Positions 31,349 to 40,806 of a stretch of 64,000 bases of DNA are shown piece by piece (the stretch's first letter is position 1; every line of letters starts with the position of its first letter). The stretch lies in the NCBI RefSeq assembly GCF_013626205.1, contig NZ_QHJE01000001.1, positions 124,001 to 188,000 of the forward strand, written 5' to 3'. Both the position numbers and the translations under genes were made by a program. The notes under the pieces were generated by a model. It saw only the letters and a program-made list of their open reading frames with translations, did no database searches and had not been told where the DNA came from. Source of the stretch: Hyphomicrobium methylovorum (GTDB taxonomy: Bacteria; Pseudomonadota; Alphaproteobacteria; Rhizobiales; Hyphomicrobiaceae).

Positions 31349-31514
31349 TTTTATAATCTCGGTATCGTACATCTGAGCGTTCGGGTTGAGCCCGACATTC
31401 ACGCCCGCGTAGCCGCGCTGTTGTCAGCACGCGTGCGATACGGCGGCAACGTCAATACGTAGTCGACCTTCAAATCGTTCGCCATTGTGTTGGTGGTGTC
31501 CGCTATGCACAGCG

Positions 31515-31545
31515 CAAAAAGGCCGACCACTCTCAGTTGTCGACC
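31515..31545 (-). terminator. intrinsic terminator of the oxidase-ridA operon
   Basis: On the minus strand GGTCGAC pairs with GTCGGCC (one G-U pair) around an 11-nt loop, followed by TTTTT. It lies 22 bases after the ridA stop. Confidence 0.6.
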
Positions 31546-31566
31546 AGATTGCGCCGGCGCGGTTCA

Positions 31567-31962
31567 TCACTGGATGATTGCGTATGCCTCGATCTCGACT
31601 TTCTGCCACTGCCTGATCATGGACGTGACCTGAACGAGCGTGCTCGCCGGGCGGATCGCATCGAATGTTTCGAGATGCGCGCGCGCCACGTCGTCGGCAT
31701 CATTGACATCGCGCAAATAGACAACGGTGCGAACGACATTCGAAGTCGACGCACCTGCATCCGCGAGAGCTTTCTCTATAATGTCGAGTGCGGCACGGGC
31801 CTGCGTATAGGCATCACTTTTTTCATAACCGGCAGGCGCACATGTTCCCGAGACATGGACGTCGTTTCCGACGCGGACGGCTCGTGAATATCCAAACACA
31901 GACTCATACGCACCACCCGACGAAATGTTGGTGCGTTTGTCAGACAATTTTTGTTTGCTCAT
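31567..31962 (-). CDS. RidA family reactive imine/enamine deaminase
   Basis: A 131-aa YjgF/YER057c/UK114 protein. Family members form trimers and hydrolyse reactive imines and enamines made by PLP- or FAD-dependent enzymes. The pattern GAYESVFGYSRAVRVGNDVHVSGTCAP, then DIIEKALADAGASTSNVVRTVVYLRDVNDADDVARAH, then RPASTLVQVTSMIRQWQKVEIEAYAI covers the whole fold, including the Arg that binds the substrate carboxylate (in RPAST). Start 31962 has GAGGA five bases upstream. It follows the FAD oxidase gene by 20 bases and is almost certainly in one transcript with it, which suggests that it clears the imine the oxidase produces. Confidence 0.92.
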   Translation of the reverse strand: MSKQKLSDKRTNISSGGAYESVFGYSRAVRVGNDVHVSGTCAPAGYEKSDAYTQARAALDIIEKALADAGASTSNVVRTVVYLRDVNDADDVARAHLETFDAIRPASTLVQVTSMIRQWQKVEIEAYAIIQ

Positions 31963-31982
31963 AATCGGTCCTCGTATTGCCT

Positions 31983-33341
31983 TTACTTTTGCATCGCGTC
32001 GCGCACGCGATACCAAGTCTCGACGACCGGGACCGCGTGTTTGGCGATGGGGTGGAGGGGAAAACTCGGAAACGTCAGATCGTCAAACGCCGTGCGGCCA
32101 TCGGGATCGCCGAGAAGCCGCAGCGCGATTTTGTTTCCAAAGTACGTCGCTCGCGAAACGCCGGTACCGCAATAGCCGAGCGCATAGTGGATACCCTGTC
32201 GCGTACGTCCAAGATGGGGAACCTCATCGAACGTGTATCCGATAAGGCCGTCCCACCCGTGGGTGACCTTCACATCCGAAAGCTCCGGAAAGACATGAAG
32301 CATATCGCGCGCGAGATGTCGGAATGCCGACGGGGATGCTCTGTCGACCAAGCGACCTACGCGACCGCCCCAGATAATGCGCCGCTCGGATGGCGCGCGA
32401 CGGTAATAGTAGAAGACGCGGTTTGTATTTCCGTAGACCCGATTTTTGGGCAATAATTTCGCCAACAGCGTTTCGGGAATTTCGTCGGTCGCGATAAGGG
32501 CTGACCCTATCGGCACGATGCGGCGCTGCAATTCGGGGACGACGCCGCCCGTATAGCCGTTCGTCGCGATAATTGTTTCGCGACACCGGAGGTCGCCTTT
32601 GGCCGTCTTGACGGTGAACCCCTCGGGAGTTTCGTCAATCGAGAAGACCTCCGCGTGTCCGACAATAACTCCACCGGCCGATCTTACTTTATCAATAAGA
32701 CCCTGATGATAAAGGCCTGGATGAAGTGAAGCATCGTTGGGCAGAACCGAACCCCCAAAAAATGCGTCCGATCCAATTTCGCTATGCTGTTCGGATTTCG
32801 GAACCATAAAACTTTCGACGCCCGCGACGCTTTTTAAATCCTCCATATCGCGCGCCATGGCCTCGAAGTGAGACGGGTGCATCGCGCCCCGAAAGCGGCC
32901 ACAACGCTGGAAATAACATTCGATGTTTTCGCTCGATATGAGATGCTCGATGTAGTCGAGCATGCGCGTGCCTTCACGCAGAAGCTCTTCCGCCTTTCTG
33001 CGCCCGCGCAATTCTATCAGCTTCTTCACTCGAAATTTTTGATTGCCGCTGCCAATCTGACCACCGTTGCGCGTGCTGGCTCCAAATCCCGGAACATCGC
33101 GTTCAAGCACGACAACGGACCGGCCACGTTTTAGCAACGTGAGAGCTGCGGAAAGACCGGTAAAACCGGAACCGACAATCGCCACATCCGTCTGGGCCGG
33201 TAAGGCATCAGATATCTCTGTGTCACGCGGCGCGGCCATCCACCAATACGGCTGCAACGTCATTGCTTCGCTTGGCAACGAGTGGCCACGCGCCAAGTCC
33301 GTAGCGCGCAACTCATCGCATCGCACATTCATGCGGCCCAT
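31983..33341 (-). CDS. FAD-dependent amine/amino-acid oxidase (PuuB/OrdL/DadA-like)
   Basis: A 452-aa flavoenzyme of the DAO superfamily. After a short lead with YWWMAAPRDT the FAD motif is DVAIVGSGFTGLSAALTLL (about 52-70), followed by PGFGASTRNGGQIGSGNQKF, which is the PuuB/OrdL signature. The C-terminal WDGLIGYTFDEVPHLGR...YALGYCGTGVSRATYFGNKIA closes the FAD site. PuuB oxidises gamma-glutamylputrescine; here the likely substrate is an N-alkylglutamate or gamma-glutamyl amide made by the divergent gmaS-mgsABC genes. The start at 33341 has GGAG upstream; ATG 33332 is possible. No mgdABCD genes are present, so this enzyme may perform the dehydrogenase step. That role is inference. Confidence 0.88.
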   Translation of the reverse strand: MGRMNVRCDELRATDLARGHSLPSEAMTLQPYWWMAAPRDTEISDALPAQTDVAIVGSGFTGLSAALTLLKRGRSVVVLERDVPGFGASTRNGGQIGSGNQKFRVKKLIELRGRRKAEELLREGTRMLDYIEHLISSENIECYFQRCGRFRGAMHPSHFEAMARDMEDLKSVAGVESFMVPKSEQHSEIGSDAFFGGSVLPNDASLHPGLYHQGLIDKVRSAGGVIVGHAEVFSIDETPEGFTVKTAKGDLRCRETIIATNGYTGGVVPELQRRIVPIGSALIATDEIPETLLAKLLPKNRVYGNTNRVFYYYRRAPSERRIIWGGRVGRLVDRASPSAFRHLARDMLHVFPELSDVKVTHGWDGLIGYTFDEVPHLGRTRQGIHYALGYCGTGVSRATYFGNKIALRLLGDPDGRTAFDDLTFPSFPLHPIAKHAVPVVETWYRVRDAMQK

Positions 33342-33404
33342 CCCAATCGACTCCGGCAAACAGTCAAAATCGCTTCGCTGCGTGTTTATACACATACAAA
33401 TATA

Positions 33405-33419
33405 TTGCACACAATGCAA
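33405..33419. promoter_or_regulatory. operator candidate between oxidase and gmaS (site A)
   Basis: TTGCA-CACAA-TGCAA is a 15-bp dyad (17 bp counting the flanking A/T pair) in the divergent promoter region, about 64 bases before the oxidase start and 78 before gmaS. Two near-identical sites lie upstream of the regulator and permease genes, which implies a shared local regulator. Confidence 0.7.
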
Positions 33420-33496
33420 TTTTATTGTATTCGCCATGCCCGGGAAGAAATGCGCCAACGCTGTCTAAACAGCATAAAAAAACGCCCGAGGATCAT

Positions 33497-34894
33497 ATGA
33501 ATTCACTCGATCACTGGAATTGGCGGGTGTCGCCGGGACAACAGGCTACTCCGGAAAATCTGACCATCGCCTCCGCTCAGCAGTTCTTAGCGCAAAACAA
33601 TATCAGGTACGTCCTGGCTCAGTTTGTCGACATCTACGGCGTCGCGAAAAGCAAGGCCGTTCCTGTGAGCCATTTTGAAGACATTCTGAGCGACGGTGTC
33701 GGCTTTGCCGGAGGGGGCGTGTTCGGCATGCGGCTTGCTCCGCATGAAGCCGAGTACATGCTGGTTGGCGATCTTTCTACTCTCAAGCTTTTGCCGTGGG
33801 CGCCCGGCTACGCTCGTGTGATGGGTACCGGCACTGTCGGCGGCAAGCCGCATATGATGGACACGCGCAATATCCTGAAGGCGCAAATCGATCGCTTAGG
33901 CCAGCGCGGCTGGACACTAAATACCGGAATCGAACCGGAATTCAGTTTGCTCGAGCGGCGATCGGATGGCGAGGTGCGTCCGCTCGACGATACCGACACC
34001 CTGCAAAAGCCAGCATACGATTATCGCGGACTATCACGTGCCAGAACATTTCTGGAGCGGGTGACCGAAAGTCTTCAGGCGCTTGATATCGACGTCTATC
34101 AGATCGACCATGAAGACGCGAATGGTCAGTACGAGATCAATTTTAAATACGCCGATGCGCTGACCTCCGCCGATCACGTTACGCTCTTCAAGATGGCTGC
34201 CGCCGAGATCGCACATGAGCTTGGCGCTATCTGCTCGTTCATGCCGAAGCCGAAGAGTTCGATGACCGGCAATGGTATGCATATTCATTGCTCGATCGTT
34301 GATGAGGCCGGAAAAAATCTATTTCACGACGCGTCTGACTCGAGCGGAATGGGCCTGTCAAAGCTCGCATACTCCTTCACTGCTGGAATTCTCGAGCACG
34401 CCAAAGCGCTCACCGCGCTGCTCGCGCCGTCGGTCAATTCCTACAAACGTCTCGTCAACGGACGCACCGCATCCGGAACGACATGGGCGCCGGTCTTCGT
34501 CACTTACGGGGATAATAATCGCACTGCCATGGTGCGCATTCCCTATGGACGTATTGAATTAAGGGTCGGCGATTCCGGCATGAATCCCTATCTGGCGCAG
34601 GCCGCACTCATTGCTGCCGGGCTCGACGGCGTAGAGCGCAATCTCGATCCCGGCCCACCTCAGAATATCAATTTCTACGCGCTGACACCTGCCGCCATCG
34701 CAGCAAGCAATATCGATATCTTACCGCAAAGCCTCTCGGAGGCGCTCGATGCGCTTGAGCGGAGTCCTCTTTTTAAAGCGAGACTAGGCGCCGACTTCAT
34801 CGACGAGTTCATCTCGCTGAAGCGCGAGGAATGGTTGGATTACCATCGGCACGTCTCCGATTGGGAAACTCGACGATATCTCACCTTCTTCTAA
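33497..34894 (+). CDS. gmaS: gamma-glutamylmethylamide synthetase / GlnT-type glutamine synthetase homologue
   Basis: A 465-aa ligase of the glutamine synthetase superfamily, in the GlnT/GMAS clade. It would join an amine to the gamma-carboxyl of glutamate using ATP. Core motifs are GIEPEFSLLER, IDHEDANGQYEINFKYADAL (Asp/Glu metal ligands from residue 204), FMPKPKSSMTGNGMHIHCS and SYKRLVNGRTASGTTWAP with RIELRVGD near the end. GAGGATCAT precedes ATG 33497. It leads the gmaS-mgsABC transcript, which favours amine activation over ammonia assimilation. Methylamine is the default substrate; ethylamine, isopropylamine or another primary amine is possible. The family is sure and the substrate is inference. 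Confidence 0.85.
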   Translation: MNSLDHWNWRVSPGQQATPENLTIASAQQFLAQNNIRYVLAQFVDIYGVAKSKAVPVSHFEDILSDGVGFAGGGVFGMRLAPHEAEYMLVGDLSTLKLLPWAPGYARVMGTGTVGGKPHMMDTRNILKAQIDRLGQRGWTLNTGIEPEFSLLERRSDGEVRPLDDTDTLQKPAYDYRGLSRARTFLERVTESLQALDIDVYQIDHEDANGQYEINFKYADALTSADHVTLFKMAAAEIAHELGAICSFMPKPKSSMTGNGMHIHCSIVDEAGKNLFHDASDSSGMGLSKLAYSFTAGILEHAKALTALLAPSVNSYKRLVNGRTASGTTWAPVFVTYGDNNRTAMVRIPYGRIELRVGDSGMNPYLAQAALIAAGLDGVERNLDPGPPQNINFYALTPAAIAASNIDILPQSLSEALDALERSPLFKARLGADFIDEFISLKREEWLDYHRHVSDWETRRYLTFF

Positions 34895-34915
34895 GAACAC
34901 CGACAGGAGAGAATT

Positions 34916-35815
34916 ATGTGTGGAATAGCGGGTCTTTTCATCAAAGACACGAAGCTTCAACCGCAGCTTGGATCGTTGCTCGCCGATATGACGTCCACGT
35001 TATGTAGCCGAGGACCAGATTCCGCGGGCTTCGCGATCTATAGCGAACCGCACTCAGGACGGACAAAGCTGACAATTGCGGGGCCAACAAAAAGTTACGA
35101 CATCGCCAAGGCCAGCAAGAAGCTCGTCGAAGCGATCGATAACACTGCGCTTGTCACGATACGTCACTCCCATGCGGTCGTGACGCTGAAGTCTGATGAC
35201 GTGTTGCGCGCCGAAGGCTGGCTTGCTGAGCATTTTCCGGAAGTCAGCGTCGTGAGTTCCGGCCAGCGGCTCGAAATTTATAAAGAGGTCGGGTATCCCG
35301 ATCACGTTGCCAAGGAATTTGGCATCGCAAAGATGTCGGGCAGTCACGGCATTTCACATACGCGCATGGCGACCGAGTCGGCGGTGACGACCAATGGTGC
35401 GCATCCCTTCTCAACGGGCGCCGACCAATGTCTCGTACATAACGGGTCTCTTTCCAACCATGCTTCGCTCCGAAGAGACTTGAGACGCGAAGGCATAAAG
35501 ATCTCCACGCAAAACGATACCGAGGTCGCGGCCGGCTACCTGACTTTGCAGATGAAAAGGGGCCAGTCGCTCGAAGGCGCGCTCAAGTCGAGCCTCGATG
35601 ATCTCGATGGATTTTTCACGTTTGTGGTCGGCACCGAAAGCGGCTTCGGCGTTCTACGCGATCCAATCGCCTGCAAACCTGCAGTGATGGCGGAAACCGA
35701 CGCGTACGTCGCATTCGGCTCCGAATACAAAACTTTGACGTGCCTCCCGGGAATTAAGGGCGCGCGCGTGTGGGAGCCGAAACCGGCAACAGTTTATTTC
35801 TGGGAGCATACCTGA
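34916..35815 (+). CDS. mgsA: N-methylglutamate synthase subunit A (class II glutamine amidotransferase, GlxB-like)
   Basis: A 299-aa Ntn-hydrolase domain protein. Cys2 in MCGIAGLF is the N-terminal nucleophile after Met removal. Other glutaminase-site motifs are RGPDSAGFAIYS, SHTRMATESAVTTNGAHPFSTG and LVHNGSLSNHASLR. It corresponds to the amidotransferase part of glutamate synthase as a separate subunit. In the NMG pathway the complex transfers methylamine from gamma-glutamylmethylamide to 2-oxoglutarate-derived glutamate. AGGAGAG lies upstream of the ATG. It follows gmaS by 21 bases and abuts mgsB with no gap. The synteny with mgsB and mgsC makes the assignment strong. The GlxB name from rhizobia refers to the same family. 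Confidence 0.87.
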   Translation: MCGIAGLFIKDTKLQPQLGSLLADMTSTLCSRGPDSAGFAIYSEPHSGRTKLTIAGPTKSYDIAKASKKLVEAIDNTALVTIRHSHAVVTLKSDDVLRAEGWLAEHFPEVSVVSSGQRLEIYKEVGYPDHVAKEFGIAKMSGSHGISHTRMATESAVTTNGAHPFSTGADQCLVHNGSLSNHASLRRDLRREGIKISTQNDTEVAAGYLTLQMKRGQSLEGALKSSLDDLDGFFTFVVGTESGFGVLRDPIACKPAVMAETDAYVAFGSEYKTLTCLPGIKGARVWEPKPATVYFWEHT

Positions 35816-36505
35816 ATGACATCGGTTGACTTGGCAAAAACGTCAGTTCGGGAGCTCAATGCCGCGCTCCATAAGCTCAACAAAGATACGAACGACACGC
35901 TTTGGACGATCACAAATCCAAACGGCGAACATGCAATAGCCGTTGGCATCGATGCGCCAACGACGCTGAATATCGATGGCAACGTCGGATACTACTGCGG
36001 CGGCATGAACAAGCTGGCCAACATCGTCATCGACGGTAGCGCAGGACAGGGCGTCGGCGAAAACATGATGTCCGGCCGTATTCACGTCAAAGGTGACGCG
36101 AGTCAAAGCGCCGGAGCAACCGGTCGCGGCGGCTTGTTGGTTGTCGACGGCAATGCATCGGCACGTTGCGGCATCTCGATGAAGGGCATCGACATCGTCG
36201 TCAAAGGCGATATCGGACACCTCTCGGCATTCATGGGGCAGAACGGCCGGCTCGTCGTTTTCGGAGAAGCGGGCGAAGCACTCGGGGATTCTCTTTACGA
36301 GGCTCATATTTTCGTCCGAGGCCCCGTCGCCAGTCTCGGTGCCGACTGCATCGAGAAAGACATGCGCGACGAACACAAAGCCGAGCTTCTGGAGCTGCTC
36401 AAGGCCACTGGCGAAGCCCATAAAATCGATATCGCCGAATTCCGGCGATATGGGTCGGCACGCAAACTCTATAATTTCAACATCGATAATGCAGGAGCGT
36501 ACTAA
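35816..36505 (+). CDS. mgsB: N-methylglutamate synthase subunit B (GltB C-terminal/GXGXG domain, GlxC-like)
   Basis: A 229-aa protein corresponding to the right-handed beta-helix (GXGXG) domain at the C-terminus of glutamate synthase. The repeat is visible as YYCGGMNKLANIVIDGSAGQGVGENMMSG, then AGATGRGGLLVVDGNASARCG, then GHLSAFMGQNGRLVVFGEAGEALGDSLYEA. It probably has a structural and channelling role between the amidotransferase and FMN subunits. Its ATG follows the mgsA stop directly, and its stop overlaps the mgsC start by one base, so the three subunits should be made in equal amounts. Confidence is high from sequence and synteny. Confidence 0.88.
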   Translation: MTSVDLAKTSVRELNAALHKLNKDTNDTLWTITNPNGEHAIAVGIDAPTTLNIDGNVGYYCGGMNKLANIVIDGSAGQGVGENMMSGRIHVKGDASQSAGATGRGGLLVVDGNASARCGISMKGIDIVVKGDIGHLSAFMGQNGRLVVFGEAGEALGDSLYEAHIFVRGPVASLGADCIEKDMRDEHKAELLELLKATGEAHKIDIAEFRRYGSARKLYNFNIDNAGAY

Positions 36506-37842
36506 TGACCAAGTTCGAGAGGAATTGGCTCCCAACACCTCCTCGCAAATCCGCTACGTTCGACGATGTCACGATGGCGGAGATCCGCCGTGCCGCTGCG
36601 ACCGGCATCTATGATATTCGCGGCGGCGGCTCCAAGCGCCGGCTTCCGAATTTCGATGATCTGCTGCTTCTCGGAGCGTCGATGTCGCGCTATCCCCTCG
36701 AAGGGTATCGCGAGAAATGCGGGACGGGCGTGGTGCTTGGAACGCGCTTTGCGAAAAAGCCCATTGAGCTGTCCATTCCCATCACGATTGCCGGCATGAG
36801 CTTTGGCTCTTTGTCTGCAAATGCTAAGGAAGCTCTTGGTCGCGGCGCATCCTTATCCGGCACATCGACAACGACGGGTGACGGCGGAATGACGCCGGAG
36901 GAGCGCGGCCAATCAAAAACGCTCGTCTATCAGTATTTGCCGTCCCGGTATGGCATGAACCCTGACGATTTGCGCAAAGCCGACGCGATCGAAATCGTCA
37001 TTGGGCAGGGCGCGAAGCCAGGTGGCGGCGGCATGCTGCTCGGTCAGAAGATTTCCGATCGCGTGGCGCAGATGCGCCAGCTTCCCAAAGGTATCGACCA
37101 GCGATCCGCTTGTCGCCATCCTGACTGGACCGGTGCAGACGATCTGGAAATAAAGATTCACGAGCTGCGCGAGATAACGGACTGGGAAAAGCCGATCTAC
37201 CTTAAGGTCGGCGCTAGTCGGCCCTACTTCGACGTCGCGCTGGCGGTGAAGGCTGGAGCTGACGTCATCGTTCTTGACGGCATGCAAGGCGGCACCGCGG
37301 CCACGCAGGAAGTATTTATCGAGCACGTCGGTATCCCGCTCCTCTCGGCCATTCGCCCGGCGGTGCAAGCGCTGCAAGATCTCGGCATGCATCGAAAGGT
37401 TCAGCTTATCGTTTCAGGCGGCATTCGAAATGGAGCCGACGTCGCAAAAGCTCTGGCACTCGGCGCCGATGCGGTGGCGATCGGAACCGCGGCCCTCATA
37501 GCGCTTGGCGACAACGATCCGAAATGGGAGGCCGAATACAAGGAGCTTGGCACGACGGCCGGCTGCTACGACGACTGGCACGAGGGCCGAGATCCGGCGG
37601 GCATCACGACGCAAACCCCCGAACTGATGCAGCGGCTCGATCCGATTGCCGCTGGACGGCGGTTAGCCAACTTTCTGAAGGTCATGACGCTCGAAGCGCA
37701 GACACTCGCGCGGGCGTGCGGCAAGAACCATGTCCACAATCTCGAGCCGGAAGACCTCGCGGCGCTCACGATTGAGGCCTCAGCAATGGCCGGGGTGCCT
37801 TTGGCTGGAAGCAACTGGATTCCCGGCTTGGGGAGCCTCTAG
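36505..37842 (+). CDS. mgsC: N-methylglutamate synthase subunit C (FMN-binding GltS-type, GlxD-like)
   Basis: A 445-aa FMN-dependent synthase barrel. FMN and 2-oxoglutarate site motifs include ITIAGMSFGSLSANAKEALG, TTTGDGGMTPEERG, GQGAKPGGGGMLLGQKI, VLDGMQGGTAATQE and VSGGIRNGADVAKALALGADAVAIGTAAL. Where glutamate synthase carries three cysteines for a 3Fe-4S cluster, this protein shows only one in GCYDDWHEGRDPAGITTQ. That suggests the cluster is absent or differently ligated, as far as I recall a trait of this subfamily. It ends the operon; a GC-rich hairpin (37864-37887) separates it from the convergent regulator gene. Confidence 0.88.
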   Translation: MTKFERNWLPTPPRKSATFDDVTMAEIRRAAATGIYDIRGGGSKRRLPNFDDLLLLGASMSRYPLEGYREKCGTGVVLGTRFAKKPIELSIPITIAGMSFGSLSANAKEALGRGASLSGTSTTTGDGGMTPEERGQSKTLVYQYLPSRYGMNPDDLRKADAIEIVIGQGAKPGGGGMLLGQKISDRVAQMRQLPKGIDQRSACRHPDWTGADDLEIKIHELREITDWEKPIYLKVGASRPYFDVALAVKAGADVIVLDGMQGGTAATQEVFIEHVGIPLLSAIRPAVQALQDLGMHRKVQLIVSGGIRNGADVAKALALGADAVAIGTAALIALGDNDPKWEAEYKELGTTAGCYDDWHEGRDPAGITTQTPELMQRLDPIAAGRRLANFLKVMTLEAQTLARACGKNHVHNLEPEDLAALTIEASAMAGVPLAGSNWIPGLGSL

Positions 37843-37863
37843 CACGATTGCGCGGTAGCATAA

Positions 37864-37887
37864 CTCCGGGGGCTCGAGCTCCCGGAG
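37864..37887. terminator. bidirectional hairpin between mgsC and the regulator gene
   Basis: CTCCGGG and CCCGGAG (7 bp) flank a palindromic GCTCGAGC core with one mismatch, giving a 24-base hairpin between convergent genes. There is no U-tract, so termination would be partial or Rho-assisted. Confidence 0.5.
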
Positions 37888-37905
37888 ACATTCAAAGCAG
37901 CTCGA

Positions 37906-38559
37906 TCACTCTCCATACATAATGATCGCTATAAACTTGATGCGATCATCGAGCAGCTTTTCCGGACCGTGAACCACGTTGCCGGAAAACGTAAAAGCAT
38001 CGCCCGGTTCGATCAGATAAGTGTGATCTCCGAAGCGATATTCCATTCGCCCCTGGAGCATATAAATGAATTCCGCTCCAGGATGAGAAAATCGTGGGTA
38101 CGATTCGCTTTTCTTATCCATCTCGATGAAGAAGGGTTCGAAAAGTTTTCGGGGTCCCCTATCGTAAGACAGGAGGCGATAGGTGTGTCCGTACTTCGTA
38201 CCCACCCGAACGACTTCCATTTGCTCCGAGCGTTTGACGAGCTGTGCGCTGCCTTGGGTCATATCCGTCTCCCGAAAGAGATCGGAGAGCCCGATGCCGA
38301 CTGCCGCACAAAGTCTTTCAAGGGAGTCCAGGCTTGCGGTGGCCATGCCGTTCTCGATGCGGCTCAGCATGGCGCTCGACAAGCCAGCTCCGACACTCAA
38401 GTCAGACAGCGTGAGATTGGCGGCCAAGCGATGCCGCTTAATAACAGCCCCGATCCGTTGTTCCAGCGGCACGTGGGCATGGTCACGTCTCTGGCTCAAT
38501 TCCAGTGCCGACGGCTTGGCATCTCCCTGTTTTTTGGTTCCAGACTTTTCCTTTGCCAT
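37906..38559 (-). CDS. XRE-family regulator with C-terminal cupin domain (PuuR-like)
   Basis: A 217-aa transcription factor. A Lys-rich N-terminal lead precedes an XRE helix-turn-helix (RIGAVIKRHRLAANLTLSDLSVGAGLSSAMLSRIENG). After a linker comes a cupin domain (PRFSHPGAEFIYMLQGRMEYRFGDHTYLIEPGDAFTFSG) that should bind a small ligand. PuuR, which represses putrescine degradation, has this layout. Start 38559 was chosen because AGAAAGG precedes it, and because longer versions would overlap operator B1. It is divergent from the APC permease, and paired 15-bp sites (38679-38713) lie between; the same motif occurs before gmaS. It is probably the repressor or activator of the whole amine cluster. 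Confidence 0.88.
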   Translation of the reverse strand: MAKEKSGTKKQGDAKPSALELSQRRDHAHVPLEQRIGAVIKRHRLAANLTLSDLSVGAGLSSAMLSRIENGMATASLDSLERLCAAVGIGLSDLFRETDMTQGSAQLVKRSEQMEVVRVGTKYGHTYRLLSYDRGPRKLFEPFFIEMDKKSESYPRFSHPGAEFIYMLQGRMEYRFGDHTYLIEPGDAFTFSGNVVHGPEKLLDDRIKFIAIIMYGE

Positions 38560-38678
38560 CGTAAGCCTTTCTGAATCGACCCTTTTATCGACGTAGGCCG
38601 ACGAGTCCGTTGTCTTCTGCATAGCGCGATATTTGCCCCGCACAAAGTACGGGCGCCCAATTCCCTCCAAATAACGAG

Positions 38679-38693
38679 ATGCAAACAATGCAA
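38679..38693. promoter_or_regulatory. operator candidate site B1 (regulator/permease promoter)
   Basis: ATGCA-AACAA-TGCAA matches site A at 33405-33419 in 13 of 15 positions. It lies between the divergent regulator and permease genes. Its centre is 20 bp, two helical turns, from that of site B2. Confidence 0.7.
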
Positions 38694-38698
38694 ATATC

Positions 38699-38713
38699 TT
38701 GCATGTGATGCAT
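38699..38713. promoter_or_regulatory. operator candidate site B2 (regulator/permease promoter)
   Basis: TTGCA-TGTGA-TGCAT is the third copy; read on the minus strand it is ATGCA-TCACA-TGCAA. With B1 it forms a tandem pair on the same helix face, as expected for cooperative binding. Confidence 0.68.
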
Positions 38714-38789
38714 TATTGCGAGAATATGCTGCGGGAATTTTTGACGAGCGACTCAAACACCAAAAAAAATCACCTAGGGAGTCTCACGC

Positions 38790-40544
38790 ATGACGCTGCT
38801 CACGCGAGCTGAAGAAATAAGTCCCAATCCACAATCTGCCGAAGTCGGCGGTCTCCATCGCACCATTAATTGGAAAGGCGCATTCTGGATCGCTAGCGGC
38901 GTACCTGCGCTTGTGATGATTTCGATTGGTGGAATGGGGGCCACGGCCGGCAAGCTCGCGTTTCTGGTGTGGACCGTTTCGGTGTTGATGGGGCTGTGCC
39001 AAGCTTACAGCTACGCAGAGATCGCCGGACTATTCGCCAACAAATCGGGTGGCGCCGCCGTCTATGGCGCTGCTGCTTGGTTGCGCTACAGCAAAATCAT
39101 CGCACCGCTGTCAGTCTGGGCCAACTGGTATGCTTGGACACCGGTGCTCTCCCTCGGCTGCACGATCGCGGCGGGATACATTCTGAATGCGATAGCGCCG
39201 CTTCCCGTTTTCACACCGGAGTCGCCGGAAGTTCTAGCCTGGCTGCATTCCGCAGCGAACGCTGCTGCCATTGACGGCAAGACCACAGCAGAAGCAGCCA
39301 AAATCGCCATCGCGGCGCTTACCGAAGCCGGTACGCCGATGTTGCGCAGTTTCACGCTCGCCAATTTCTCATTTTTTGGTCTCGTCAACATCGAGATCGG
39401 CTCGACCTTCTTCATCGGCGCGGCTTTGATGCTGATGGCGTTTGCGATCCAGCACCGCGGCGTTCTTGGGACGGCCCGCGTGCAGATGTGGATCGGCCTC
39501 ATGGTCATCGTCCCGATGCTGATCGTTGGAATCGTGCCGTTCTTCAATGGTAGCGTTCACAGCGAGAACTATTTTCCGCTCATGCCGCCGGTCGGAGAAT
39601 GGAGCAACGCCGGATGGACCCAGCTCTTTGGCGCCCTTTTCATCGCCGGATGGTCCACCTACGCCTTCGAGACGGCCGTTTGCTACACGCGTGAGTTCAA
39701 GAATCCGGCGGTTGACACCAAGAAATCAATCGTGAGTGCCGGACTCCTTTGCGTGGTGCTCTATTCGCTGGTGGCAGCGACGTTCCAAGGCTATCTCGGC
39801 CTTGACGGCATGACGTCACCCGGCATCGTGGATGGAACGGGCGTTGCGGCCGCGATGGGCCGGATGGTCGGCAGCGGATCAACGTTCGTCACACATCTTC
39901 TGGAAATGATGATGGTGATGGCCCTGATCCTCGCAATCATGATGGCGATGGCCGGTTCGTCTCGCACACTTTACCAGGGAGGCCTCGATGGGTGGCTCCC
40001 GAAATATCTTTCGCACACGAACGAGCACGGCGCGCCAACCAAAGCCATGTGGACCGATCTGGTCTTCAATCTCGGCCTACTCTCATTTGCGTCGTCAGAT
40101 ACGAATGCCTACTATTTCATCCTGTCGATCTCCAACGTCGGCTATATGATTTTCATCTTCCTGAATCTGCAGTCCGTGTGGATTCATCGCATCGATAGCC
40201 CCGATATTCCGCGGCCCTATCGTACACCCAATTGGTTGGTTGCCGTGAACGTGGGGCTCGGATTCTTCAACCTTCTGTTGATGGGTGCTGGCGCAAAAGT
40301 CTGGGGTAATCCGAATGCGCTCTGGTACGGCATCGGCTTTGGTCTCCTGATCCTTCCGGTATTTTTCTATCGGCACTATGTCCAAGACAAAGGTCAGTTT
40401 CCTGACCATATGCTGATGGATCTCGGTCTCAAGAGCCAGGATCTCGGGGCACGGCGCGCCGGCATGCTCCCCTACCTTGCGCTGGCGGTTGGCGCGGGCG
40501 TGGTCCTGTTCGGACACTATTACTTCCAACTTCCTCCTGCGTAA
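38790..40544 (+). CDS. APC superfamily amino acid/amine permease
   Basis: A 584-aa inner-membrane permease with about 12-13 helices. APC hallmarks include FWIASGVPALVMISIGGMGATAG in TM1, SYAEIAGLFANKSGGAAVYGA in TM3 and FETAVCYTREFKNPAVDTKKSI in the TM6-7 region. Extra length lies in the loop after TM4 (about residues 125-190). GGGAGTC precedes the ATG. Its promoter region is shared with the XRE-cupin regulator and carries operators B1 and B2. It probably imports the amine or N-alkyl amino acid processed by gmaS-mgsABC and the FAD oxidase. A strong terminator follows at 40550. Confidence 0.9.
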   Translation: MTLLTRAEEISPNPQSAEVGGLHRTINWKGAFWIASGVPALVMISIGGMGATAGKLAFLVWTVSVLMGLCQAYSYAEIAGLFANKSGGAAVYGAAAWLRYSKIIAPLSVWANWYAWTPVLSLGCTIAAGYILNAIAPLPVFTPESPEVLAWLHSAANAAAIDGKTTAEAAKIAIAALTEAGTPMLRSFTLANFSFFGLVNIEIGSTFFIGAALMLMAFAIQHRGVLGTARVQMWIGLMVIVPMLIVGIVPFFNGSVHSENYFPLMPPVGEWSNAGWTQLFGALFIAGWSTYAFETAVCYTREFKNPAVDTKKSIVSAGLLCVVLYSLVAATFQGYLGLDGMTSPGIVDGTGVAAAMGRMVGSGSTFVTHLLEMMMVMALILAIMMAMAGSSRTLYQGGLDGWLPKYLSHTNEHGAPTKAMWTDLVFNLGLLSFASSDTNAYYFILSISNVGYMIFIFLNLQSVWIHRIDSPDIPRPYRTPNWLVAVNVGLGFFNLLLMGAGAKVWGNPNALWYGIGFGLLILPVFFYRHYVQDKGQFPDHMLMDLGLKSQDLGARRAGMLPYLALAVGAGVVLFGHYYFQLPPA

Positions 40545-40549
40545 CACGC

Positions 40550-40580
40550 AACCCGCGCGGCTCGACCGCGCGGGTTTGTT
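40550..40580 (+). terminator. intrinsic terminator after the APC permease
   Basis: AACCCGCGCGG and CCGCGCGGGTT form an 11-bp perfect stem with loop CTCGA, followed by a TGTTTG tract. It starts six bases after the permease stop. Confidence 0.75.
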
Positions 40581-40601
40581 TGCAGCACAATAGGAATGAC
40601 C

Positions 40602-40742
40602 ATGTCGAAAGAAATTCTTTGTGCTGCAGACGACGCGCGGATCCCATCACGCAGTGGTCGCCGCTGGCAAGAAGTGCACAGCAACCGCTCAGTGATTGGA
40701 TCGATTTCGCACCACTTGCTCTATCTGGGCGATCCCTACTGA
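40602..40742 (+). CDS. candidate 46-aa small protein between two terminators
   Basis: ATG 40602 is preceded by TAGGA six bases upstream and opens a 46-codon frame beginning MSKEILCAADDARIPSRSGR and ending LLYLGDPY. There is no signal peptide or membrane helix; it is mixed charged with three His and one Cys. It is flanked by a strong terminator upstream (40550-40580) and another downstream (40774-40806), so it could be an independent short transcript or a read-through product of the permease mRNA. I do not recognise a family. An alternative is a small RNA with a fortuitous frame. Confidence 0.4.
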   Translation: MSKEILCAADDARIPSRSGRRWQEVHSNRSVIGSISHHLLYLGDPY

Positions 40743-40773
40743 CGCTTTCCGAAGCCCGAGGCGTTAGGAACTT

Positions 40774-40806
40774 GCCGCGAGAGATAATCTCTTGCGGCCT
40801 TTTTTA
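40774..40806 (+). terminator. intrinsic terminator downstream of the 46-aa frame
   Basis: GCCGCGAGAGA pairs with TCTCTTGCGGC (one G-U) around the loop TAA, followed by CTTTTTT. This is a textbook rho-independent structure, placed 32 bases after the small frame. Confidence 0.8.

Follow-up and report, generated by a model that had tools for sequence, protein, structure and literature searches.

The window analysed here is a stretch of 64,000 nucleotides of the Hyphomicrobium methylovorum genome (contig NZ_QHJE01000001.1, positions 124,001 to 188,000). At positions 31515-40806 it contains a unit of eight genes organised in three transcription blocks: genes for a Rid-family protein and a flavin adenine dinucleotide (FAD) oxidase (FADox) on the minus strand, gmaS-mgsABC on the plus strand, and a regulator gene on the minus strand facing away from a permease gene on the plus strand (Table 1). 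This unit is real, conserved and co-regulated, and it is a new variant of the N-methylglutamate (NMG) pathway. A preliminary description of the window, made from its letters, had placed the named genes here, and profile matches recovered each of their families at this position. It was also right to bound the unit by terminators, T-run hairpins being present on both sides, and to draw the oxidase and gmaS blocks as divergent. The regulator gene, by correction, is on the minus strand and divergent from the permease gene, which gives the unit two divergent promoter regions. The hairpin found 3' of the Rid gene is omitted from a hairpin list made with a loop limit of 8. The FADox start was set 3' of the operator, the mechanically called open reading frame (ORF) starting at 33458.

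Table 1 Features of the eight-gene unit, with positions in the window
Feature	Position	Strand	Support	C1 coordinates
Likely terminator hairpin with CTTTTT, 3' of the Rid gene	31505-31566	-	RNA fold -30.7 kcal/mol	
Rid-family protein, likely start 31953	31567-32016	-	PF01042 79.8 bits	
FADox, single-chain DAO-fold FAD oxidoreductase	31983-33341	-	PF01266 196.4 bits	
Operator TTGCACACAATGCAA within the FADox/gmaS divergent promoter, outer arms TACAA and TTGTA	33405-33419			C1:157405-157419
GmaS, gamma-glutamylmethylamide synthetase (GMAS), type III glutamate-ammonia ligase family	33497-34894	+	TIGR03105 631 bits, cut-off 469.6	
MgsA, glutamine amidotransferase-type NMG synthase subunit	34916-35815	+	PF13522 67 bits	
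MgsB, GXGXG NMG synthase subunit	35816-36505	+	PF01493 39 bits	
MgsC, flavin mononucleotide (FMN) glutamate-synthase-type NMG synthase subunit	36505-37842	+	PF01645 296.8 bits	
XRE-cupin transcriptional regulator	37906-38688	-	PF01381 (HTH_3) and PF07883 (Cupin_2), both over cut-off	
Two operators, ATGCAAACAATGCAA and TTGCATGTGATGCAT, in the regulator/permease gap	38679-38713			C1:162679-162693, C1:162699-162713
APC permease, trimethylamine N-oxide (TMAO) permease family	38790-40544	+	NF053774 793.5 bits, cut-off 690	
Intrinsic-terminator-like hairpin, 11 pairs, T run	40774-40798	+	fold -19.1 kcal/mol	

Recurrence of the unit and its shared operator

We compared the synteny of gmaS-mgsABC, oxidase and Rid genes in a collection of 103 genomes of the family (one genome per species), a comparison that the preliminary description had proposed. 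Out of the 103 genomes, 15 carry the full eight-gene unit in identical order, and this recurrence excludes a chance arrangement (loci L006-L009, which are the same as L060, L064, L063 and L066, were counted once among the 15). The genes flanking the unit in the window, encoding RlpA and a TonB receptor, were among the queries of the 11-gene-order checks and had no match at the 14 other full-cassette loci. Oxidase orthologues of at least 65% identity number 27 copies in 26 of the 103 genomes. Besides those of the full units, they include a cassette interrupted by a contig end (G035, kept outside the 15), two reduced modules consisting of Rid, oxidase, regulator and permease genes without gmaS-mgsABC (G058 and G060) and nine standalone copies, one of them the second copy of G066. 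The genus sample of 22 genomes holds the oxidase in 15 and the full unit in 11. Ligase genes of the unit type (gmaS2, E < 1e-160) are present in 15 of the 103 genomes, always within the unit beside the oxidase gene, and MgsC copies of at least 89% identity occur in the same 15; no gmaS2-mgsABC2 lacking the oxidase was found in the family collection, and all 26 oxidase genomes carry MgsC.

With four candidates scored for each of the 385 genomes of a class sample, the best oxidase match beyond the family reaches at least 48% identity, which is a lower bound. The oxidase also had 83 matches among 72,556 plasmid records, and the 25 of these that were listed are 35-44% identical. Homologues of 43-48% identity outside the family lie in mixed gene surroundings without a common theme. 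No account of the eight-gene unit was found in the literature, the papers covered being the open-licence ones in PMC, so that absence in print is not shown.

Both divergent promoters carry the palindrome TTGCA-N5-TGCAA. We counted the pattern WTGCAN5TGCAW over the 15 full cassettes (337,013 bp), scoring a site as inside when it lay in one of the two divergent intergenic regions (6,478 bp in total) or no more than 20 bases away. Out of 36 sites, 34 fell in these intergenic regions; the inside and outside counts of the control patterns were 0 and 2 for the mirrored palindrome, 0 and 1 with the spacing reduced by one and 0 and 3 with the spacing increased by one. The FADox/gmaS region contains one operator in all 15 full cassettes, flanked by the TACAA/TTGTA outer arms in 11 of them, and the regulator/permease region contains one or two operators in 12 of the 15. 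The operator also precedes the oxidase gene in both reduced modules, and it is found within 400 bases of none of the nine standalone copies. The H. methylovorum genome as a whole has 21 WTGCA-N5-TGCAW sites versus 12 of the mirror image. The unit accounts for three of these 21 sites; the canonical mgd/mgs locus of this genome has none.

Since one operator type is found at both divergent promoters, the unit is a regulon. The earlier claim of a self-contained regulon therefore survives in one half: gene order and the shared operator indicate that GMAS, NMG synthase, a single flavoprotein, Rid and permease are co-regulated; self-containment, in the sense of replacing MgdABCD, is not supported. 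The palindrome would be bound by the XRE-cupin regulator of the unit, which shares 40% identity with its counterpart at the canonical mgs locus. A PuuR identity was rejected for this regulator (NF007408 26 bits versus a cut-off of 211).

Canonical pathway, ligase and permease in the same genome

According to the preliminary description the unit stood in for MgdABCD, and a search of the genome for mgdABCD had been proposed. The mgdABCD genes are not among the ORFs of the eight-gene unit, and their loss from the genome was ruled out: they were located at C1:2.755-2.760 Mb (MgdC, TIGR01372 1371.8 bits, cut-off 1164), without the operator of the unit. They belong to a canonical region (C1:2.747-2.770 Mb) that also contains a TMAO-type permease, dmm-type genes and a second regulator-mgsABC-gmaS set. 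The subunits encoded by the unit and by this region are 61% (MgsA), 66% (MgsB) and 85% (MgsC) identical. A further MgsC of 84-87% identity is present in all 15 unit genomes, and all 15 encode an Mgd-type enzyme elsewhere. In 13 of them (H. methylovorum included) MgdC is at least 64% identical to that of H. methylovorum, and in G055 and G080 the sole Mgd-type enzyme is a divergent one (MgdC 34-37%) adjoining canonical mgsA. The presence of canonical mgsC and of an Mgd-type enzyme in all 15 genomes indicates that the unit is a parallel module and not a replacement for MgdABCD. A divergent Mgd-like set beside canonical mgsA (MgdA 43-44%, MgdC 34-37%) was seen in G055, G080, G058 and G035 (L211, L214, L215 and L217, respectively) and perhaps represents another NMG dehydrogenase lineage.

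The GmaS of the unit and the canonical GmaS are 37% identical and represent two lineages in one genome. Scores against 9QUR and 7CQL are 598.7 and 303.7 bits for the former; for the latter they are 323.4 and 598.8 bits. These structures are the GMAS of Methylovorus mays (9QUR) and of Rhodovulum (7CQL; PMC12588301). The methylamine pocket of the Rhodovulum enzyme, RhGmaS, is described as seven residues, Y147, Q175, D177, E179, E186, N188 and K30' (PMC7948447). All seven (RhGmaS numbering) are kept in each of the 14 cassette GmaS rows of our alignment, which left out one cassette GmaS, that of G016. In ten rows from a third type-III clade of the genus, positions 175 and 188 are occupied by Ser and Asp. 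Closeness to the methylamine ligase of M. mays and the retained pocket make methylamine the first candidate, and from its sequence the ligase is likely to act on methylamine or a short alkylamine. RhGmaS is reported to accept ethylamine too (PMC7948447), and the M. mays enzyme to act on a wider range of amines than its Rhodovulum counterpart (PMC12588301). The earlier suggestion of an amine other than methylamine is thus not supported, though the ligase may use a short alkylamine. A PuuA-type gamma-glutamylputrescine synthetase was rejected as well, NF045547 giving 269.7 bits versus a cut-off of 650 and TIGR03105 matching far better.

The third-clade ligases (L098, L099, L101-L108) are 40-42% identical to the GmaS of the unit and likely use another amine; in L099, L107 and L108 the ligase gene directly adjoins a TMAO-type permease of 43-48% identity. 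Two more glutamine-synthetase-like genes are found in the H. methylovorum genome (L015/L016, C1:3281566 and 3088022). One is transcribed divergently from a DAO oxidase gene of 27% identity and the other lies beside aldehyde-dehydrogenase- and aminotransferase-like ORFs, by eye perhaps a Puu-type locus.

Five permeases of the H. methylovorum genome exceed the NF053774 cut-off, that of the unit scoring lowest. One TMAO-type permease, at 2.614 Mb, is encoded beside trimethylamine monooxygenase (Tmm) and TMAO demethylase (Tdm), and another beside the dmm-type genes of the canonical locus. As to the TMAO-type permeases L202 and L201 (C1:2738927 and 2469445), one is located by a glutamate formimidoyltransferase gene (TIGR02024 262 bits) and the remaining one has no recognised amine gene nearby. 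The gap between the permease gene of the unit and its terminator contains an ORF of 48 amino acids (40596-40742, plus strand) that looks by eye like two joined ends of a universal stress protein and is possibly a remnant. A tblastn search with this ORF returned itself plus weak matches only, and at L171 (G080) two short stretches 3' of the permease gene resemble its start and end (weak tblastn matches, E 3 and 6).

The flavoprotein oxidase and the Rid protein

The oxidase reached no curated cut-off among its 18 NCBIfam matches. The best of these was TIGR03329 (putative aminophosphonate oxidoreductase; 142.3 bits, cut-off 632.8), and no PuuB model was among them. The label PuuB-like, given to this protein in the preliminary description, is not supported by these matches, though the protein does have a DAO fold. 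The unit is a variant of the NMG pathway rather than the proposed hybrid of the NMG and Puu pathways. An AlphaFold model of the oxidase (predicted local distance difference test, pLDDT, 86.1; predicted template modelling score, pTM, 0.88) has its closest folds in glycine oxidase (4ysh), L-proline dehydrogenase beta and heterotetrameric sarcosine oxidase beta (1vrq/2gag), and iminodiacetate oxidase (6pxs) is further down the list. Judged from this model, the fold appears nearest to oxidases of amino acids or secondary amino acids, which suits NMG without singling it out.

In a tree of 58 oxidase rows, from which out-group loci with stops or fewer than 380 residues were excluded, unit and standalone copies are interleaved, and the well-supported branches force at least five changes of the label unit and at least four of the label standalone. 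The two reduced modules fall within the unit clade together with G055. Their oxidase is under purifying selection (G060 versus G058, nonsynonymous divergence dN 0.172, synonymous divergence dS 1.163), and since these modules keep both the operator and a selected oxidase, the oxidase is independent of neighbouring gmaS-mgsABC. NMG should be available even without gmaS2, because MgsC is present in 26 out of 26 oxidase genomes. The flanks of the two reduced modules and G055 share no common gene, and so the deletion event itself is not visible.

A fixed partner of the standalone copies is not supported, no common neighbour being found across them. In four genus genomes (L061, L062, L065 and L067) the standalone oxidase gene is beside those of a luciferase-like monooxygenase and a molybdopterin oxidoreductase, with an APC permease gene also near it in L061, L062 and L065. 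No shared neighbour was seen for the other standalone copies, two of their contigs being only 4.9 and 6.0 kb long.

The preliminary description had the Rid protein, as a RidA, clearing the imine. In our alignment of 18 Rid copies (15 full units, G035 and the two reduced modules) Ser replaces the catalytic Arg, Arg105 of E. coli TdcF, in every copy, and the protein scores 54.7 bits with TIGR00004, under the cut-off of 106.25. RidA imine hydrolysis is described as requiring an arginine, and Rid4-Rid7, in which it is missing, are considered not to hydrolyse imines (PMC4433059; PMC5619798). An ordinary imine deaminase was therefore rejected, and imine clearance is not supported by the key residue. 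Rid genes are reported to cluster often with FAD amine oxidases, and Ser to occupy this position in about 10% of RidA proteins (PMC4433059). By this analogy a functional link between the Rid protein and the oxidase remains likely.

Role of the unit and relation to known systems

The reading we favour, tentatively and at somewhat less than an even chance, is that of a mobile Hyphomicrobiaceae regulon that handles methylamine, or else a very short alkylamine, alongside the canonical NMG pathway, with the oxidase acting downstream on NMG. The regulator would respond to the amine or to its glutamyl derivative and the permease would import the amine; GmaS would form gamma-glutamylmethylamide, which MgsABC would convert to NMG. 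The steps that follow are the least certain. The single flavoprotein may oxidise NMG, supplied by the synthase of the unit and by the canonical one, to glutamate and free formaldehyde, and could in this way be a folate-free second NMG outlet beside MgdABCD, with the Rid protein possibly assisting by means other than canonical imine hydrolysis. We incline towards a downstream oxidase because its gene shares a divergent promoter with gmaS and because members of the permease family are found in a methylated-amine setting.

Several observations weigh against this placement. G058 and G060 retain oxidase, Rid, regulator, permease and operator without gmaS-mgsABC, and no operator accompanies the nine standalone copies, a pattern consistent with the oxidase having its own substrate. 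Within the five oxidase genera the co-occurrence of oxidase and MgsC (26/26 versus 42/45) is not significant (P = 0.07). The mean distance is greater for the oxidase (0.38) than for GmaS (0.18) and MgsC (0.09), indicating faster evolution of the oxidase, and the correlations of FADox distances with those of GmaS and MgsABC, 0.78-0.86, are uncorrected for shared ancestry. Finally, NMG is already served by an Mgd-type enzyme in all 15 unit genomes.

It is unlikely, though a serious contender, that the oxidase acts upstream instead, the permease importing an N-methyl amino acid or another secondary amine from which the flavoprotein would free methylamine, to be trapped by gmaS-mgsABC as NMG for MgdABCD. 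The two genomes that hold the four-gene core and the operator without gmaS-mgsABC, with an oxidase under purifying selection, speak for this order of events, as does the presence of MgdABCD to consume the NMG. There is a precedent in PbfC/PbfD, DAO-family enzymes described as converting N-methyl-2-aminoethylphosphonate to phosphonoacetaldehyde and methylamine, not formaldehyde (PMC10590968), and TIGR03329 is the best NCBIfam match of our oxidase, though with 142.3 bits versus a cut-off of 632.8. However, the permease family and its four other members, with their Tmm/Tdm and dmm neighbours, indicate simple methylated amines and not N-methyl amino acids, the unit is without a phosphonate or other dedicated substrate gene, and the reduced modules nest in the cassette clade and so may be recent losses. 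Slightly more doubtful is the proposal that permease, regulator, oxidase and Rid are the heart of the unit, so that an N-methyl compound would be imported, the flavoenzyme and the Arg-less Rid would release methylamine, and GMAS and NMG synthase would feed the canonical NMG dehydrogenase.

We consider it improbable that the unit serves another short amine such as ethylamine or propylamine, from which GmaS2-MgsABC2 would make an N-alkylglutamate unusable by MgdABCD and the oxidase would free the aldehyde. GmaS2 is only 37% identical to canonical GmaS while MgsC is 85% identical, and the reported broader scope of the M. mays GMAS (PMC12588301) and acceptance of ethylamine by RhGmaS (PMC7948447) would agree with such a role; GmaS2 nevertheless belongs to the lineage of true methylamine ligases with the whole pocket kept, the same core adjoins dimethylamine monooxygenase genes on plasmids, aldehyde dehydrogenase is absent from the unit, and the loss of gmaS-mgsABC in two genomes would make the remaining genes useless. 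Least probable of all is plain redundancy, a spare operon scavenging methylamine nitrogen whose oxidase and Rid protein are unrelated amine housekeeping under a shared regulator. In its favour, all 15 genomes have canonical mgs and an Mgd-type enzyme, standalone oxidase copies lie in varying surroundings and the Rid protein is without the catalytic Arg. Against it stand the fixed gene order, the operator that precedes the oxidase gene in all 15 full and both reduced cassettes, and the failure, across 103 genomes, to find gmaS2 apart from the oxidase.

Methylamine is widely taken up via the NMG pathway, and the wiring of the last step, to folate-bound or free one-carbon units, is discussed differently among organisms. 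Methylene-tetrahydrofolate (methylene-H4F) is predicted as the last-step product for Methyloversatilis universalis (PMC5023235), and formaldehyde is named as the branch point in M. extorquens PA1 (PMC5023228). If the oxidase does act downstream on NMG, as we prefer, it would be a natural NMG oxidase of a single chain, offering a direct test of this last-step wiring and a simple enzyme with which to make or assay N-methylglutamate. If it releases methylamine, the unit would name an unrecognised methylamine source, and with the permease-oxidase core at its heart it would open a new route into methylotrophy and give a first role to an Arg-less Rid protein with an oxidase. The operator, together with the reduced and standalone forms, makes both placements of the oxidase testable.

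Each part of the unit has relatives in known systems. The position of the Rid gene directly behind the FAD oxidase gene is that described for Rid genes clustered with FAD amine oxidases (PMC4433059), but the Rid protein of the unit differs from those described there in having Ser for the catalytic Arg. The oxidase shares the PF01266 family, and with it presumably amine or amino-acid oxidation, with PbfC/PbfD and the PuuB-type DAO oxidases, whereas it reaches no curated cut-off and has different partner genes. By its sequence the permease passes the equivalog cut-off of the TMAO permease of Methylocella silvestris (NF053774), yet as the lowest of five, the Tmm/Tdm-linked permease being another copy. 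The glnT-glxBCD islands of Pseudomonas aeruginosa RW109 plasmid 1 and Acinetobacter sp. PK01, for methylamine and dimethylamine, have the same regulator-gmaS-mgsABC core (GmaS 60%, MgsC 81-82% and regulator 46-48% identical). Unlike the unit, they carry dmm-type genes and an ammonium transporter alongside, and the 19 kb read contained no oxidase, Rid or permease match. With the canonical NMG pathway (gmaS, mgsABC and mgdABCD, for example in M. universalis FAM5, PMC5023235) the unit shares GmaS, the three-subunit NMG synthase and a related XRE-cupin regulator; in contrast to it, the unit is without mgdABCD and has a single flavoprotein with a Rid protein, its own operator, its own permease and a GmaS of a different lineage.

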